Source: Phycisphaerae bacterium
GTDB lineage: Bacteria > Planctomycetota > Phycisphaerae > UBA1845 > PWPN01
Length of the DNA: 39,841 bases
Assembly: GCA_012729395.1 (NCBI GenBank)
Contig: JAAYDF010000204.1
Span: forward strand, 1 to 39,841
Direction of reading: 5' to 3'
Every line of letters begins with the position of its first letter. Within the stretch, counting starts at the first letter, position 1. The position numbers were made by a program, and so were the translations under genes. Below the pieces are notes generated by a model, which saw nothing but the letters and a program-made list of their open reading frames with translations, was not told the origin of the DNA and did not search any database. Positions 26,847 through 37,317 of the stretch are shown in pieces.

Positions 26847-27377
26847 CTAGCGTGGTTTGCGGACCAAGCCCAGCACGCCCAGTGCCACGAGGGCGACCGT
26901 TGCCGGTTCAGGCAACTCGACGATGCTCAGCGTCAAGCTGTAAATCCCGGTGGAGGAATGGCTTCCGTCAAATTCGGGATCGCCGGCGCCGGTGACCCCG
27001 AGGTAGTAGACGCCGGTCTGCGAGGCGGCGAACTGGATGGCCGATCCGAGCCCGCTGCCCAGGTTATCGTCGAAGACCAGTTGGGTTCCATCCGAGAGGA
27101 ACAGCGCCATCAACGTGTCCGGGGCGGTAAACATGATGCTCATGGGCGTGGTAATGGCGGTGAAGGTCTCGCCCGCGTTCAGGTTGATGGCGAAGAAGTC
27201 CACGTCGTTGGTCGAGTCGAGGGTCAGGACACCCACATCCGACCACGAGGGCGAGCCTCGAGTGATGAGATTCGCCTGGCCGATCGTCTCATTGGGAGAA
27301 GCCTCCATGAACGACGCCAGACAGGGGGAAGCGACAAAAACGGAAAAACACAGCGCAGTTCGTAACGTTGCCCTCAT
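26847..27377 (-). CDS. PEP-CTERM secreted protein with a PPC-like beta domain
   Basis: The 176-residue protein has a signal peptide (about 1-21), a domain resembling the bacterial pre-peptidase C-terminal fold (segments such as NDVDFFAINLNAGETFTA and GVYYLGVTGAGDPEFDG) and a PEP-CTERM sorting end: LPEPATVALVALGVLGLVRKPR in outline (Pro-Glu-Pro, hydrophobic helix, basic tail). Such proteins are cut by an exosortase and attached to the surface or matrix. No exosortase is in the window. There is no enzymatic motif, so a structural or binding role is likely. Confidence 0.88.
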   Translation of the reverse strand: MRATLRTALCFSVFVASPCLASFMEASPNETIGQANLITRGSPSWSDVGVLTLDSTNDVDFFAINLNAGETFTAITTPMSIMFTAPDTLMALFLSDGTQLVFDDNLGSGLGSAIQFAASQTGVYYLGVTGAGDPEFDGSHSSTGIYSLTLSIVELPEPATVALVALGVLGLVRKPR

Positions 27378-28691: not shown

Positions 28692-28718
28692 TAAAGTCAT
28701 TCCTCAAGCAGCCGAGTG
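28692..28718 (+). promoter_or_regulatory. Sigma-28 (FliA)-type promoter for the chemoreceptor gene
   Basis: TAAAGTCA (28692-28699), an 11-base spacer and GCCGAGTG (28711-28718) match the FliA plan TAAAGTTT-N11-GCCGATAA at 11 of 16 positions, including the conserved TAAAGT and GCCGA cores and exact spacing. It lies 128 bases upstream of the chemoreceptor start. The rest of the 28481-28845 gap holds an imperfect GC-rich hairpin after panB (about 28540-28580) and no gene. Confidence 0.6.
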
Positions 28719-28845: not shown

Positions 28846-30777
28846 GTGTTCAAGAACCTGAAGCTGTCGATGAAAATGGCGGGAGGATTTGGGGTTCTGG
28901 TGGTGATCGCGGCTGTTCTTGGGTTGACCGGTTGGTGGGGCTTAAGCGGCGTGTCGCAGAACGTGGGTTTTTACGACCAGGGCAACGTCTGTCTTGAGAA
29001 GATCAACAAGTGTGGATACCTGCGTCGGGATTTCACGATTCGCGGGTTCGAGAAATTCGGCGGCGAGGGGAAGGATGCCTCGGAGCAGTGGCTGAGCGTC
29101 TACGACGAGCTGGCCAAGGATCTGCAGTTGCTTACGGTCGAGGAAGGGCTTTCGACGGAGGGTCGTGAGCTGGCCAAGGCCGGACTGGCCAGCGGCGAGC
29201 AGTACAAACAGGCATTCGGTTTGCAGATCTCCAGTCGGAAGGCGAAGGACGATGCCTTTGCCGAGTGGGGCAAGGTCGGCTGGGACGTGACCAAGATCAT
29301 TGAGGAGACGACTCAGCAGGTGATCGCGCCGAAGCGGGATGCGGCTGAGCAGTCGAAGGACGCGGAGGCGATCATCCAATGGTCGAAGATCGCCTCGGGT
29401 CTGGACGAGCAGTTCATCCAGCCGTTTTTGCTGCTTCGGGTCTGCGCGGTTTACCTGCTGGCGACGGATGCGGACAAGCAGTGGGAGGCTTACGGCCAGC
29501 AGTTGACGAAGGTCGGAGAGGGCCTGGCCCAGTGGGGGCGGACGGTCAAGGGCGACGCCGAGCTGGAGCAGGTGGCGACGCGTCTGGGCCAGTGCGTCGA
29601 GCAGTACCAAGCCTCCGGGAAGAAGTATTGGAACGGCGTGCTCGATCAGCGCCGGGCCGACCAGGAGATGGTCACCAGCGCCACGTCGGTGATGGACTCG
29701 ATCGGCGGCCTTCAGACGACGCTCAAGGCGTCGATGGATTCGATCACCGCGTGGGCCAACACCGCGATGACGTTGCTGACGATCGGCGGCATCGTGGTGG
29801 GCGTGGTGATGGCGTTCCTGATTACGCGGAGCATCGTCAAGCCGATCAACCGCGTGATTGCCGGACTGACCTCGGGCGCCGAGCAGGTGGCGGCGGCGTC
29901 GGGCCAGGTCTCCCAGTCCAGCCAGCAAATGGCTGAGGGCGCCAGCGAACAGGCGTCGAGCCTGGAGGAGACCAGTTCCTCGCTCGAGGAGCTGACGAGC
30001 ATGACCAAGCAGAACGCCGAGAACGCCCGGCAGGCCAGTTCGATGTCGACCGAGGTGGGCGAGTCGGCCGGCCGCGGCGGCGATGCGATGACGCGGATGA
30101 GCGAGGCGATCAACAAGATCAAGACCTCATCGGACCAGACGGCCAAGATACTCAAGACGATCGACGAGATCGCGTTCCAGACCAACCTGCTGGCCCTTAA
30201 CGCCGCGGTGGAAGCCGCGCGGGCGGGCGAGGCGGGCAAAGGTTTCGCCGTGGTGGCTGAGGAAGTCCGGAACCTGGCCCAGCGGTCGGCGGAGGCGGCC
30301 AAGAATACCGCTTCGCTGATCGAGGACGCCCAGAAGAACGCGGAGAACGGCGTGTCGGTGTCCGAAGAGGTGGCCTCGATGCTCAAGGAGATCATCGAGG
30401 GCGTGGGCAACGTCACCCGGTTGGTCGGCGAAGTTTCGTCGGCCTCCGATCAGCAGGCCCAGGGCATCGACCAGATCAATACGGCGGTCGCGCAGATGGA
30501 CAAGGTGACCCAGTCGAACGCGGCCAACGCTGAGGAAAGCGCCTCGGCCTCGGAGGAACTCTCAGCCCAGGCGGTGGAACTGACCGAGATGGTGGGGGCG
30601 CTGGTCCAGATCGTCGAGGGCAGCAAAGCCCAGCGAGGTACGGGTCAGGGCAAGGCGCTTCGTCCGGCCGCCGAAGCCAGGAAGACGGTTTCGCCGCGGC
30701 GCAGCGTGGCGTCCCCGAAGGCGACGAGCGGAGTGGGTGAAGACCACCATACCGATCCGGGCATGGGCGATTTCTAG
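28846..30777 (+). CDS. Methyl-accepting chemotaxis protein
   Basis: The 643-residue receptor has a first membrane helix (about 14-33), a large helical periplasmic sensor domain of about 270 residues (long, possibly HBM-like), a second helix (about 306-327), and a cytoplasmic signalling coiled-coil. The highly conserved hairpin tip is [20 protein letters not shown] in type (about 440-460). The HAMP region is short and degenerate ([13 protein letters not shown]). No CheR-binding pentapeptide is at the C-terminus, which is a Pro/Arg/Ser tail. The start is GTG after TGGAGGAAA. The ligand is unknown. Confidence 0.92.
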
Positions 30778-30851: not shown

Positions 30852-30880
30852 AGGGCGCTCGGGTCCAGCCCGAGCGCCCT
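30852..30880. terminator. Second hairpin, probably the terminator of the convergent lipoprotein operon
   Basis: AGGGCGCTCGGG and CCCGAGCGCCCT form a perfect 12-bp stem with a TCCAG loop. It lies 24 bases beyond the stop of the minus-strand operon and is followed on that strand by ATTTC. It could act in both directions. Confidence 0.75.
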
Positions 30881-30904: not shown

Positions 30905-31069
30905 CTATTCGACCACCGGCCCTTCGTCCACGACCACGTCCTTCTGGATCGTTTCCTGGTGGACGTGGCGTTCGCGTTTGGGCTCGCAGCCGGTGAGGGC
31001 GGCGACGCCCACCACCAGCACGGTCGAGACCACCATCGTCATCATTACGCGGATCAGTTTCTCGGCCAT
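30905..31069 (-). CDS. Small lipoprotein (54 residues), third gene of the LPP20/CsgG-like operon
   Basis: The frame reads MAEKLIRVMMTMVVSTVLVV, then GVAALTGCEPKRERHVHQE and an acidic end (DVVVDEGPVVE). The LTGC lipobox gives a mature lipopeptide of about 27 residues starting at Cys28. AAAGGAG lies upstream at normal spacing, and the gap to the preceding LPP20 gene is 20 bases, so it is the last gene of the operon. I know no named family; size and charge resemble small outer-membrane lipoproteins. Confidence 0.75.
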   Translation of the reverse strand: MAEKLIRVMMTMVVSTVLVVGVAALTGCEPKRERHVHQETIQKDVVVDEGPVVE

Positions 31070-31089
31070 CGTATACTCCTTTCCGTTTT

Positions 31090-32400
31090 TTAGCGACTCT
31101 GGTAGGTGGTGACTCGGATCTGATCGGCGATGACCGACCAGACGCGGGTTCCTGGGATCTCGACGGTCACGCGGACCGTCTCTTCGCCGATCTCGGTGTC
31201 CTTGATGTAGGCCCCGTCGAGGATGGTCCGGAGCTGGGTGCGGATCATGTCGTTTTCCGTCACGAAGTCCCTGACGGTGGTCTCGGAGCGGATGGCGAAT
31301 CCGTCGATGGTCTCGCCGAGCTTCCGCTTGGCGTCGAGCTCAGCGGCGCGGGCGGCCATGAGCTTGGCCTGGGCGGCGGGCTTATCCGACATGATCGGGG
31401 CCTCGCCGACGGCGGAGATGGCTTGGGACCGCCAATCCGGCGGCTGGACTTCCATGGCGGCCTCGGCCGTCTGCATGAACTTGGCCGGCGGGACGCCCAT
31501 GCCGGTGGCGCGGTAGTACTTGGTTTCGGCGCGGGTCGTCACTTCGGTGAAGTCGATTTCCTTGACCCGGTCATCCTTGACGTGACGGTCGAAGGACTGG
31601 CGGATGGTGGCGATCACGGTCTTCCACGGGATTTCCACGGTGACTTCGCAGATCAGTTCGTCGTCGTGGAAGTAGGTCTTGACCTCTTTGGCGCCCTTGA
31701 GGGTGGTGCGGAGTTCGGCCTCGATCTCGTCGTATTCGGTGACGAAGTCTCGCACGAGGGTGTCGGAGGCGATCCGGAAGCCGCGAAGCTGCTCGCCGAG
31801 TTTGCGGTAGGCGTCGAGCGTGGCGGCGCGGACGGCCATCAGTCGGCCCTGCGGCCCGACCTGCTTCCAGAGGTCCGGGATGTAGGGCGAGGGCAGGACT
31901 TCGACCGGCTGGCTGGTGATTCCGTCGGTGATCTCGAGCGGGGCGTCCGGTCGCGGCGCGCCCATGCCGGTGGCCTCGATCATGGTGATGTCGGTCCGCG
32001 TCTCCATCTTCTCGATGTCGGTGGTCTTGACGCGGTCGTCCTTGTAGTGGGCCGAGTGGATCTTCTTGATCTCGGCGACGACCTTCTTGTAGGCCACTTC
32101 GCCCTTGACCTCGCAGGAGCCGTCGTCGAACCAGCGGGGCTTGCCCAGTTCGATGCCTTTGATGAAGGTGTTCATCTCGGTCTCGATGACGTCCGATTCG
32201 GTGACGAAGTCGCGAACGAGGGTTTCGGAGGTGATCTGGAGGCCCATGATTCGTTCGGCCAGCTTGCGGTAGCAGTCGGCTTCCGCGGCCCGCTTGGCCA
32301 GCAGCTTGTTCTGGGCCTGTTTGGCTGCATCCTCCTGGGCCAGGGCGGAAAGCACGGGCATCAGCAACAGCACGCTCAAGGCAAGTCGGATTCGGTTCAT
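31090..32400 (-). CDS. Exported protein with three tandem LPP20-like repeats (FlgP/FlgT-like)
   Basis: The 436-residue protein has a cleavable signal peptide (cut near ALA-Q, about 21) and three copies of one module at about 31-118, 184-270 and 344-430. Each copy carries RAAxxDxxRKLxExxxGFxI and SxTxVRDFVTExDxI, then a beta-rich end with VTVEIPW-type segments. This is the LPP20 domain signature seen in Helicobacter LPP20 and flagellar FlgP. Usual family members have one copy, so three are unusual. The start at 32400 has AAGGAGA upstream. The operon context with a CsgG-like protein suggests an outer-membrane assembly. Confidence 0.8.
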   Translation of the reverse strand: MNRIRLALSVLLLMPVLSALAQEDAAKQAQNKLLAKRAAEADCYRKLAERIMGLQITSETLVRDFVTESDVIETEMNTFIKGIELGKPRWFDDGSCEVKGEVAYKKVVAEIKKIHSAHYKDDRVKTTDIEKMETRTDITMIEATGMGAPRPDAPLEITDGITSQPVEVLPSPYIPDLWKQVGPQGRLMAVRAATLDAYRKLGEQLRGFRIASDTLVRDFVTEYDEIEAELRTTLKGAKEVKTYFHDDELICEVTVEIPWKTVIATIRQSFDRHVKDDRVKEIDFTEVTTRAETKYYRATGMGVPPAKFMQTAEAAMEVQPPDWRSQAISAVGEAPIMSDKPAAQAKLMAARAAELDAKRKLGETIDGFAIRSETTVRDFVTENDMIRTQLRTILDGAYIKDTEIGEETVRVTVEIPGTRVWSVIADQIRVTTYQSR

Positions 32401-32467
32401 CGTATTCTCCTTATGCTTGACAACGAACTGATTCAACCGTTTGACAGCCGGCGGCGGCGCCGCGGCG

Positions 32468-33619
32468 TTACTGGGCCGGTTGCGAGGCCGGCGCTTCGGT
32501 CTCGGTGTTGACCATTCCCTCCGCGGTGGCCTTGCCCAGCGGGTTCTCGGCCAGGGCCTCACGCCGTTTCTCCAGCAGGCCTTTGACCCGCGTCAGGCCC
32601 GCCAGGTACATCTCCTCATCCTTGTCGGCGAAGGCCATCTTGTAGTAGTCGAGGGCCTTGGGCAGGCCGCCCGAGACCTCGTAGGTGACGGCCAGGTTGT
32701 ACATTGCGCGGTGGTCGTCGTCCTCTTCGGTCAGACTCCGCTGGAAGAGCTCGATGGCGTCCTGGTATTCGCCGGAGCGCAGGAGGCGGGTGGCCGACTT
32801 GGCCATTTTCTTTTTCGGGTCGGCCAGCGGCACGTCGTAGGCGACCTTGTGGGGCAGGATCTGGGCGACGAATTCGTCGACCAGTTCGGTGAGCATGGCG
32901 CCGATCGCGTCGGTCTCCGGCTGGAGGTCGGCCTCGTCGTAGTCCTTGCCCATGATGGCGCCGGGCTTGAGGTCCACCGTCTGCGAGCGGTTGGAGGCAA
33001 AGGTGTGGATGGACCGGCCGTTGGCCACGGAGACCAGCTTGAAGTCGACGGCGGTGTTGATCGTCCGTTTGATGCGTTTCTTGTAGGTCGTCGAGGGCGC
33101 CACGCCGTATCCGCCGGGGCGGAACTCGACCGTCTTGACCTGGCCTTCCACCGAATCGATGCTGATCACGACCTTGCCGTAGCAGATGGCTTGGGTTTGG
33201 GCGAGCTTGCCCAGTTGCAGGGCTTGGTTTTCCTCAGCCAGGCCGGCGTCGGCCAGGTCCTTCTCCTTCATGATGGCCGCCACCGATTCCCGGTCGGCCA
33301 GCTTGAGCGGCATGTCGAAATCGCGGGCGTACTCCTGCATCTTGGCGGCGACCGCGGCGATGATGTGGTCGCCCCATTTGCGCTCGCGGTCGGTGTAGAC
33401 GTTCTCCTTGTCCTCGATCGCCTGGGTGAAGGGCAGGATGGCGATGGAGGTCAGGTTTTCCGGCAGTCCGACCTTGGCCGGTTCGGTGTACTCGATGTGG
33501 ATGGTCGGTTTGTTTTTCTTCTTTTTCTTTCCGAAGAAGGCGCCGGCGTCCGCGGTCAGGGCCAGGCTGACCAGCAGGACGAGTGCCAGGTGCGGGAGGC
33601 GGACGGTTGGATGCAGCAT
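32468..33619 (-). CDS. CsgG-like exported protein with C-terminal TPR repeats
   Basis: The 383-residue protein has a signal peptide (about 1-26), a short poly-Lys run (GKKKKKNK), then a CsgG/TolB-N-like alpha-beta domain with SIAILPFTQ (58-66), ADRESVAAIMKEKDL and a KTVEFRPGGYGVAPST region. About 270-340 are TPR helices (SGEYQDAIELFQRS, AMYNLAVTYEVSGG). A Pro/Gln-rich tail follows. There is no lipobox, unlike CsgG itself. AGGAGA precedes the ATG. It heads the three-gene operon, with TCCGATAA at 33679-33672 about 50 bases upstream. The function is probably an envelope scaffold; the exact role is unknown. Confidence 0.75.
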   Translation of the reverse strand: MLHPTVRLPHLALVLLVSLALTADAGAFFGKKKKKNKPTIHIEYTEPAKVGLPENLTSIAILPFTQAIEDKENVYTDRERKWGDHIIAAVAAKMQEYARDFDMPLKLADRESVAAIMKEKDLADAGLAEENQALQLGKLAQTQAICYGKVVISIDSVEGQVKTVEFRPGGYGVAPSTTYKKRIKRTINTAVDFKLVSVANGRSIHTFASNRSQTVDLKPGAIMGKDYDEADLQPETDAIGAMLTELVDEFVAQILPHKVAYDVPLADPKKKMAKSATRLLRSGEYQDAIELFQRSLTEEDDDHRAMYNLAVTYEVSGGLPKALDYYKMAFADKDEEMYLAGLTRVKGLLEKRREALAENPLGKATAEGMVNTETEAPASQPAQ

Positions 33620-36240: not shown

Positions 36241-36294
36241 AGACAACGCGGAACTACATCGGCAACCGGGACGTAGTGTAGGTTTGGTGAGGTG

Positions 36295-37317
36295 ATGTTG
36301 CGTTACAATGCTATAATCTTAGTTTTATTCATGGCTGTGGCCTCTCTTGCGGGGTGTCAGCAGATCCGGATGCAGCAGGCGACCGAGTTGACGGTGCGCG
36401 GCATTGATCTGCTGGAGGACCAGGAGTACGAAGCCGCCGTCGCCGAGTTTCAGGAGGCGATCGCGCTGAACCCGCAGTTGGCCATCGCCCACTCGCGGAT
36501 GGGGGCGGCGTATCTGGCCATGGGGCGGATCCACCAGGCCCTGGAGTGCTATCAGCACGCGGTCAAGGTCGATCCGTTCAGCTTTGAGGACGCCTTCTGT
36601 CTGGGCCAGATTCACCATCGACTCGGGCAGGTCCGCGAGGCGATCCGGGCGTATCTGCACGCCGCCGACCTGAACGAGAACTCGTTCCAGTGCCAGTTGA
36701 GCCTGGGCGTCTGCCACCTGCAGCTTGGAGCGGTCGATCAGGCCGTCGAGCGATTCCAGGCGGCGCTCGCGATCGATCCGGACAGCGCGTTTGCCTATTC
36801 CAATCTCGGCGCGGCGTACGACATGCAGGGCCATTACTACGAGGCGATCGGGGCCTACAAGGAGTCGCTGGAGCGCGATCCGCGCCAGCCGATGGTGCTG
36901 GTCAATCTGGGCACCACTTACATCAAACAACAGCGGTTCAACGCGGCTGAAGGGGCTTTCGCCCGGGCCGTCGAGTGCGATCCGACGTGCGCCGCCGCCT
37001 ACGAGCGGCTGGGCTATTGCCTGTACCGCCAAGCCAAGCTCGACGAGGCCGAGCATACGTACAAGAAGGCGCTCGATCAGTCGGAGAAACTGGCCTCGGC
37101 CCACGCCGGGTTGGGCGTGGTTCTGATGACGCGTTACCTGCAGGTCCAGAAGGCGGCTGAGACACCCGGTGACAGCGACGAGACGGCCGATCTGCGCCAG
37201 CGCGGCCTGGAGCACTGGCACCGGAGTCTGGAATTGGATCCCGATCAGCCCAAGATCCGCCGGCTGCTGGAAAAGTACTCCCCTAAACTGGCCGCCAAAT
37301 CGCTTCCGACGCTGTAG
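36295..37317 (+). CDS. TPR-repeat lipoprotein
   Basis: The 340-residue protein begins with a lipoprotein signal (VLFMAVASLAGC) and then consists of about eight TPR units, for example EYEAAVAEFQEAIALNP, GRIHQALECYQHAVKVDP and KLDEAEHTYKKALDQSE. It should be a membrane-anchored scaffold that holds partner proteins, similar to the lipoprotein pilotins of pili and secretion systems. I chose the ATG at 36295 after GGTGAGG; a GTG one codon earlier is equivalent. No partner system is adjacent. Confidence 0.85.
   Translation: MLRYNAIILVLFMAVASLAGCQQIRMQQATELTVRGIDLLEDQEYEAAVAEFQEAIALNPQLAIAHSRMGAAYLAMGRIHQALECYQHAVKVDPFSFEDAFCLGQIHHRLGQVREAIRAYLHAADLNENSFQCQLSLGVCHLQLGAVDQAVERFQAALAIDPDSAFAYSNLGAAYDMQGHYYEAIGAYKESLERDPRQPMVLVNLGTTYIKQQRFNAAEGAFARAVECDPTCAAAYERLGYCLYRQAKLDEAEHTYKKALDQSEKLASAHAGLGVVLMTRYLQVQKAAETPGDSDETADLRQRGLEHWHRSLELDPDQPKIRRLLEKYSPKLAAKSLPTL

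Follow-up and report, generated by a model that had tools for sequence, protein, structure and literature searches.

The basal disk of Campylobacter and the H-ring of Vibrio are rings of FlgP/FlgT-type modules, according to a 2025 in situ motor paper (PMC12222027), in which the hallmark of FlgP ring formation is given as a beta-hairpin, inserted between the SHS2 helix and the second strand, and FlgQ of C. jejuni is predicted to be a repeat of two FlgP units. In another source, FlgP usually but not universally carries an N-terminal lipid anchor, and Lpp20 of Helicobacter pylori is described as a lipoprotein of unknown function (PMC11756786). We analysed a stretch of 39,841 nucleotides from a Phycisphaerae MAG of 370 contigs (hereafter the window), which contains an operon encoding a CsgG-like/TPR protein (gene 1), a protein with three LPP20 modules (gene 2) and a tiny lipoprotein (gene 3). 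No description of such a triple-LPP20/CsgG-TPR/tiny-lipoprotein system was found in the open-licence literature.

Gene 2 resembles FlgP (LPP20 family, PF02169) in its exported LPP20/SHS2-like module, but it has three modules per chain, no lipid anchor, no flagellar tie and a hairpin insert that is modelled as helices. Its tandem FlgP-type modules in one chain are shared with FlgQ, which has two modules instead of three and is needed for basal disk assembly, whereas H. pylori Lpp20 (HP1456, 5OK8), the closest fold to the LPP20 module, has only one. The likeness to FlgT (PF16548, PF16539, PF16538) and FlgO lies in a co-inherited FlgT_N-type protein and in the CsgG-like domain of gene 1, which resembles the FlgT middle domain; here, however, the domains are split over several proteins, the CsgG-like part carries TPRs, and the distribution is independent of the flagellum. 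The N-terminal domain of gene 1 is also similar in fold to lipoproteins of the CsgG/PelC/HpaA superfamily, from which gene 1 differs by its TPR fusion and by the lack of an evident membrane channel. Unlike the CsgG secretion channel, the window copy of gene 1 has no lipoprotein signal.

The operon and its three proteins

The three genes lie on the minus strand between 33619 and 30905, as the sequence-only reading had placed them, each with an AAGGAG Shine-Dalgarno-like site 5' of its ATG. Gene 1 (32468–33619, 383 aa) was assigned from Pfam CsgG and TPR matches, a structure model and a lipobox survey; gene 2 (31090–32400, ATG at 32400, 436 aa) from Pfam LPP20 matches, repeat analysis, a model and a signal survey; and gene 3 (30905–31069, 54 residues) from its sequence and a survey of downstream stretches. 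Direct reading of the sequence revealed an inverted repeat followed by a T-rich stretch at 30853–30879 (minus strand), which is probably the terminator of the operon, facing a convergent chemoreceptor gene. On contig C104 of the host genome the operon occurs a second time, again accompanied by a tiny lipoprotein of its own.

The close relatives are from MAGs of Phycisphaerae and other Planctomycetota, and only the operon genes were widely common to the 20 neighbourhoods compared. The window-type gene order is CsgG/TPR, triple LPP20, tiny lipoprotein; in family f4, triple LPP20 and the tiny lipoprotein are followed by a second, divergent LPP20 protein and then by one of FlgT_N type with about 390 aa. 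Parts of both arrangements are combined in distant relatives, the Auribacterota and Theseobacter MAGs, where the order is LPP20 (a short, weak match), triple LPP20, FlgT-like and CsgG-like. In these MAGs the LPP20/FlgT-like cluster is preceded, in divergent orientation, by a GAF/sigma-54 activator gene (L188:1747-3237 and L191:1553-3079), and the cluster may be under sigma-54 control. Elsewhere in the window, outside the operon, a TPR-repeat lipoprotein (36292–37317, plus strand, lipobox LAGC) matches the TPR part of the CsgG/TPR profile, and 26847–27377 encodes a secreted protein that we take to resemble a PEP-CTERM protein, with the C-terminal motif PEPATVALVALGVLGLVRK.

The deduced gene 2 protein matched LPP20 with 44.3 bits (Pfam cut-off 25.9) in three separate stretches, and these repeats share 38–46% mutual identity over 98–129 columns, bearing out the earlier description of three tandem copies in one chain. 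LPP20 was detected in all 27 of 27 aligned relatives at E <= 0.001. The signal is of the signal-peptidase-I type with cleavage at ALAQ; an AQ-type site is present in nearly all triple-LPP20 proteins of the signal survey, and their mature start is not immediately preceded by a lipobox. The credible sequence relatives of solved structure are FlgP-type chains only (five distinct FlgP/lipoprotein chains, E 5e-13 to 5e-7); a ribosomal PDB chain (E 0.17) was taken as a chance match. The model of gene 2 (pLDDT 90.5, pTM 0.59) has a fold nearest that of H. pylori Lpp20 (5ok8_B), with a Foldseek E of 0.013 and a Z of 10.2 at 3.0 A over 94 residues. Weaker matches are Tp0624 (Z 7.0), FlgT (Z 5.2), dodecin (Z 4.8) and, by Foldseek, FlgP of C. 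jejuni (E 0.038). The stretch matching the beta-hairpin insert of FlgP aligns with it without gaps but forms helices in the monomer model. A chain of 1471 residues with six LPP20-type repeats was also observed in a genome lacking FliG_C, FlhA and Flg_bbr_C (G066, L122:7386-11801).

The CsgG domain of gene 1 scored marginally in Pfam (21.5 bits, cut-off 20.8) and is followed by about two C-terminal TPRs (TPR_19, 27.9 bits, cut-off 25), which agrees with the fusion proposed from the sequence-only reading. CsgG similarity at the sequence level is weak, being detected in 4 of 14 aligned family members at E <= 0.01; a match to DUF6340 (PF19867; 25.0 bits) was below the cut-off of 26.4 and, among the same 14 proteins, reached E <= 0.01 in the window's own protein only. 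An Auribacterota CsgG-like relative scored 119.9 bits for CsgG, with FlgT_M and FlgT_C below cut-off and a weak match to FlgO. Gene 1 is predicted to be exported, and the window copy lacks a lipobox cysteine, but a lipobox was identified by pattern in 26 of 29 CsgG/TPR proteins (the window copy counted in the 29). With the gene 1 model (pLDDT 83), Foldseek retrieved the Vibrio LPHT-ring chain 8z5n_0 as the best match (E 9e-7), then HpaA, FlgT, CsgG (4uv2) and PelC (5t0z). With normalisation to the query these matches have low TM-scores (0.30 or less), partly owing to the TPR region, which they do not share, and TPR proteins took up a second-look structure alignment list. Many relatives also encode, away from the LPP20 operon, a second family of longer CsgG/TPR-like proteins (mostly about 400–580 aa, with an extra insert), an example in the host being on contig C352 (G000; L206:3310-4767).

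The 54-residue ORF of gene 3 has an LTGC lipobox and a conserved hydrophobic-acidic C-terminal tail, -VVE. At 29 of 41 loci (counting only loci with matches of 500 bits or more), a lipoprotein that fits a pattern of signal, lipobox and short mature chain with a hydrophobic-acidic end is encoded in the 900 bp that follow the triple-LPP20 gene, compared with 10 of 1794 random 900-bp stretches from the same loci. A stricter tail pattern with an extra hydrophobic position was matched at 18 of 48 loci and misses the window copy. The usual tail is SPGEMVVE, and an EM-SPGEM unit is repeated in some genomes (L143, L146). Typical carboxylate-clamp TPRs carry clamp asparagines; on inspection these are absent from the TPR consensus, and binding of the -VVE tail by such a clamp was set aside.

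Flagellar genes and the distribution of the operon

LPP20 modules related to those of FlgP, CsgG-like fold matches that include FlgT and a co-inherited FlgT_N-type partner support the relation of the operon to FlgP and FlgT that was noticed at the outset. The accompanying proposal was that its parts might form an undescribed flagellar accessory structure, the operon lying beside a chemoreceptor gene with a sigma-28 promoter. The chemoreceptor gene (28846–30777, plus strand) does adjoin the operon and is preceded at 28692 by a sigma-28-like site, TAAAGTCA-N11-GCCGAGTG, that agrees with the consensus at 11 of 16 letters. When the same 300 bp were shuffled, 12/16 was reached in 2.3% of cases; the site is not significant by score and is no more than suggestive. 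As the two units are convergent, the chemoreceptor promoter cannot drive the operon, and the adjacency is not conserved, homologues of the chemoreceptor ORF being found at fewer than 2 of 20 other loci. The sequences upstream of 29 CsgG/TPR operon heads were not enriched in sigma-28 sites (their best scores averaged 9.52, those of shuffles 9.56), and no flagellar gene was found in the flanks scanned with Pfam (one or two genes on each side at some loci).

Among the 114 genomes of the order, 78 had an LPP20-profile match at E <= 1e-10, 73 of them strong (the class used for co-occurrence, which leaves out G390, G034, G443, G039 and G445, whose sole LPP20 match is weak), and 107 had FliG_C. Strong LPP20 and FliG_C occurred together in 67 genomes, LPP20 alone in 6, FliG alone in 40 and neither in 1 (Fisher p 0.42), so the survey gave no association between the two, and the triple-LPP20 gene is absent from 40 of the 107 FliG-bearing genomes. 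Four LPP20-only genomes (G395, G409, G436 and G440) retain both FlhA and Flg_bbr_C; we took their assemblies to be incomplete and did not count them as flagella-less. FliG_C, FlhA and Flg_bbr_C are all missing from G441 (98% complete), which has the complete three-gene operon and two FlgT-like genes, and from G394 (87% complete), which keeps the LPP20/lipoprotein/FlgT-like version. The operon or its variant is thus kept in genomes without these flagellar genes, a finding of the kind that the sequence-only reading had named as refuting its proposal, and a flagellar role is not supported. In a sample of the phylum, 16 of 343 genomes had an LPP20-profile match, 9 with FliG_C and 7 (79 to 92% complete) without FliG_C, FlhA and Flg_bbr_C. 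In two of these marker-less genomes (G048 and G073) a CsgG/TPR-like gene adjoins the LPP20 gene, and in another (G079) LPP20 is accompanied by a weakly related downstream gene at the contig end.

The simplest reading of these data is that the presence of the system is independent of flagella. A flagellar motor accessory of the basal-disk or H-ring type in Phycisphaerae would account for modules that are those of FlgP and FlgT, for FliG_C in 67 of the 73 strong triple-LPP20 genomes and for the adjoining chemoreceptor, but we consider it rather unlikely in view of the many flagellated genomes without the gene, the marker-less carriers in the order and in the phylum sample, and the lack of flagellar genes and of a sigma-28 excess around the operon. 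Since flagella-less relatives keep the operon and many flagellated ones miss it, it probably builds another envelope structure. With 107 of 114 genomes flagellated, most carriers are flagellated as well, and use of the system by the flagellum may occur in those carriers.

Separately, the FlgI (P-ring) profile matched over about its first 230 positions a long ORF (mostly 580–700 aa) in the 41 genomes searched (the host and 40 relatives). Two such ORFs, L235:979-2832 (G000:C218) and L236:1282-3000 (G038:C11), are lipoproteins by their lipobox. This FlgI-like envelope lipoprotein is separate from flagellar FlgI and is the sole FlgI match in G005 and G010.

A co-inherited FlgT-like protein

The FlgT-like protein found with the triple-LPP20 gene matched FlgT_N with at best 28.6 bits, just under the cut-off of 28.8, and FlgT_N was detected in 9 of 13 members of its family at E <= 0.01; no FlgT_M match was obtained with Pfam in the members searched. 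With a 13-row profile, the family was identified in 77 of the 114 genomes of the order. In the 73 genomes at least 90% complete (picked by completeness irrespective of contamination), 51 had both the triple-LPP20 and the FlgT-like gene, none had LPP20 only, 1 had the FlgT-like gene only and 21 had neither; the corresponding numbers for all 114 genomes were 69, 4, 8 and 33. When the five genomes with weak LPP20 matches were counted in, the tables became 51/4/1/17 and 69/9/8/28, respectively. The Fisher p value of 2e-17 for this co-occurrence overstates the evidence because the genomes are related and the counts are not independent events. The losses are scattered over several families, and within one genus (g30) two genomes (G032 and G035) have both genes and a third (G455, 97% complete, FliG_C present) has neither.

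The FlgT-like gene is often on another contig than the LPP20 gene (e.g. C260 in the host, G000), and no general conserved neighbour of the unlinked gene was found in 20 neighbourhoods. The co-occurrence is therefore not a side effect of gene order, and these data support the assignment of the FlgT_N-type protein to the same system as the triple-LPP20 protein, as its third protein.

Possible structures and their relation to motor rings

We propose, with moderate confidence, that the system is a flagellum-independent, periplasmic scaffold or ring linked to the outer membrane and made from modules of the FlgP/FlgT accessory-ring type. A new scaffold was one half of what the sequence-only reading had suggested, and it is the half we prefer. 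As the structural subunit, the triple-LPP20 protein would contribute three FlgP-type modules per chain, and both the family to which it belongs and its fused repeats suggest oligomerisation and assembly into a ring or disc. As this chain has no lipid anchor of its own and a short lipoprotein is encoded in the same operon, we propose that it is anchored in trans, the tiny lipoprotein holding it at the outer membrane by means of a lipid and the conserved tail. The CsgG-like/TPR protein, which in most relatives is a lipoprotein, may act as an assembly or docking factor, and the often unlinked FlgT-like protein may complete the structure.

It is less probable that the operon serves exopolysaccharide or protein secretion, with gene 1 forming an outer-membrane ring of CsgG/PelC-like lipoproteins that offers TPR docking sites and the LPP20 protein a periplasmic collar. 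PelC and CsgG are indeed among the best folds for gene 1, and the second operon copy of the host is divergent from a gene for an outer-membrane efflux protein (OEP, L043:12451-14733), but no conserved transporter or synthase gene adjoins the operon across loci. In addition, the gene 1 model contains a long hairpin (144–165/176–197), and on inspection this region (residues about 155–190) is rich in charges (e.g. KKRIKR), unlike the membrane-spanning hairpins of the kind found in CsgG; we regard the secretion role as improbable. A general scaffold for maintenance of the outer membrane that lacks ring symmetry, like Lpp20, LipL46 and Tp0624, appears marginally less probable still, for although the best gene 2 fold is that of H. 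pylori Lpp20, Tp0624 is also matched and FlgT-like proteins match LipL46 with E values of 5e-9 to 2e-8 (short of the curated cut-off), it leaves by itself the strict FlgT-like co-inheritance and the fused triple architecture unexplained. The crateriform pits of planctomycetes were set aside as the candidate structure, the gene being present in only 16 of the 343 sampled genomes of the phylum.

The flagellum-independent scaffold or ring can be extended, more tentatively, to a statement about ancestry: Phycisphaerae and scattered relatives (Auribacterota, Theseobacter) might possess an outer-membrane ring or disc machine independent of flagella and anchored in trans by a -VVE-tailed lipoprotein that docks on the ring, and this machine could be a sister to the rings recruited by flagellar motors or the pool from which they were drawn. 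According to the 2025 in situ motor paper, the origins of the FlgP/FlgT-type proteins added to motors remain unclear (PMC12222027). With the same modules persisting without flagella, together with a strict partner and a simple predicted tether, an origin of such rings before or outside the motor becomes testable, and previously unnamed planctomycete genes gain a concrete hypothesis.
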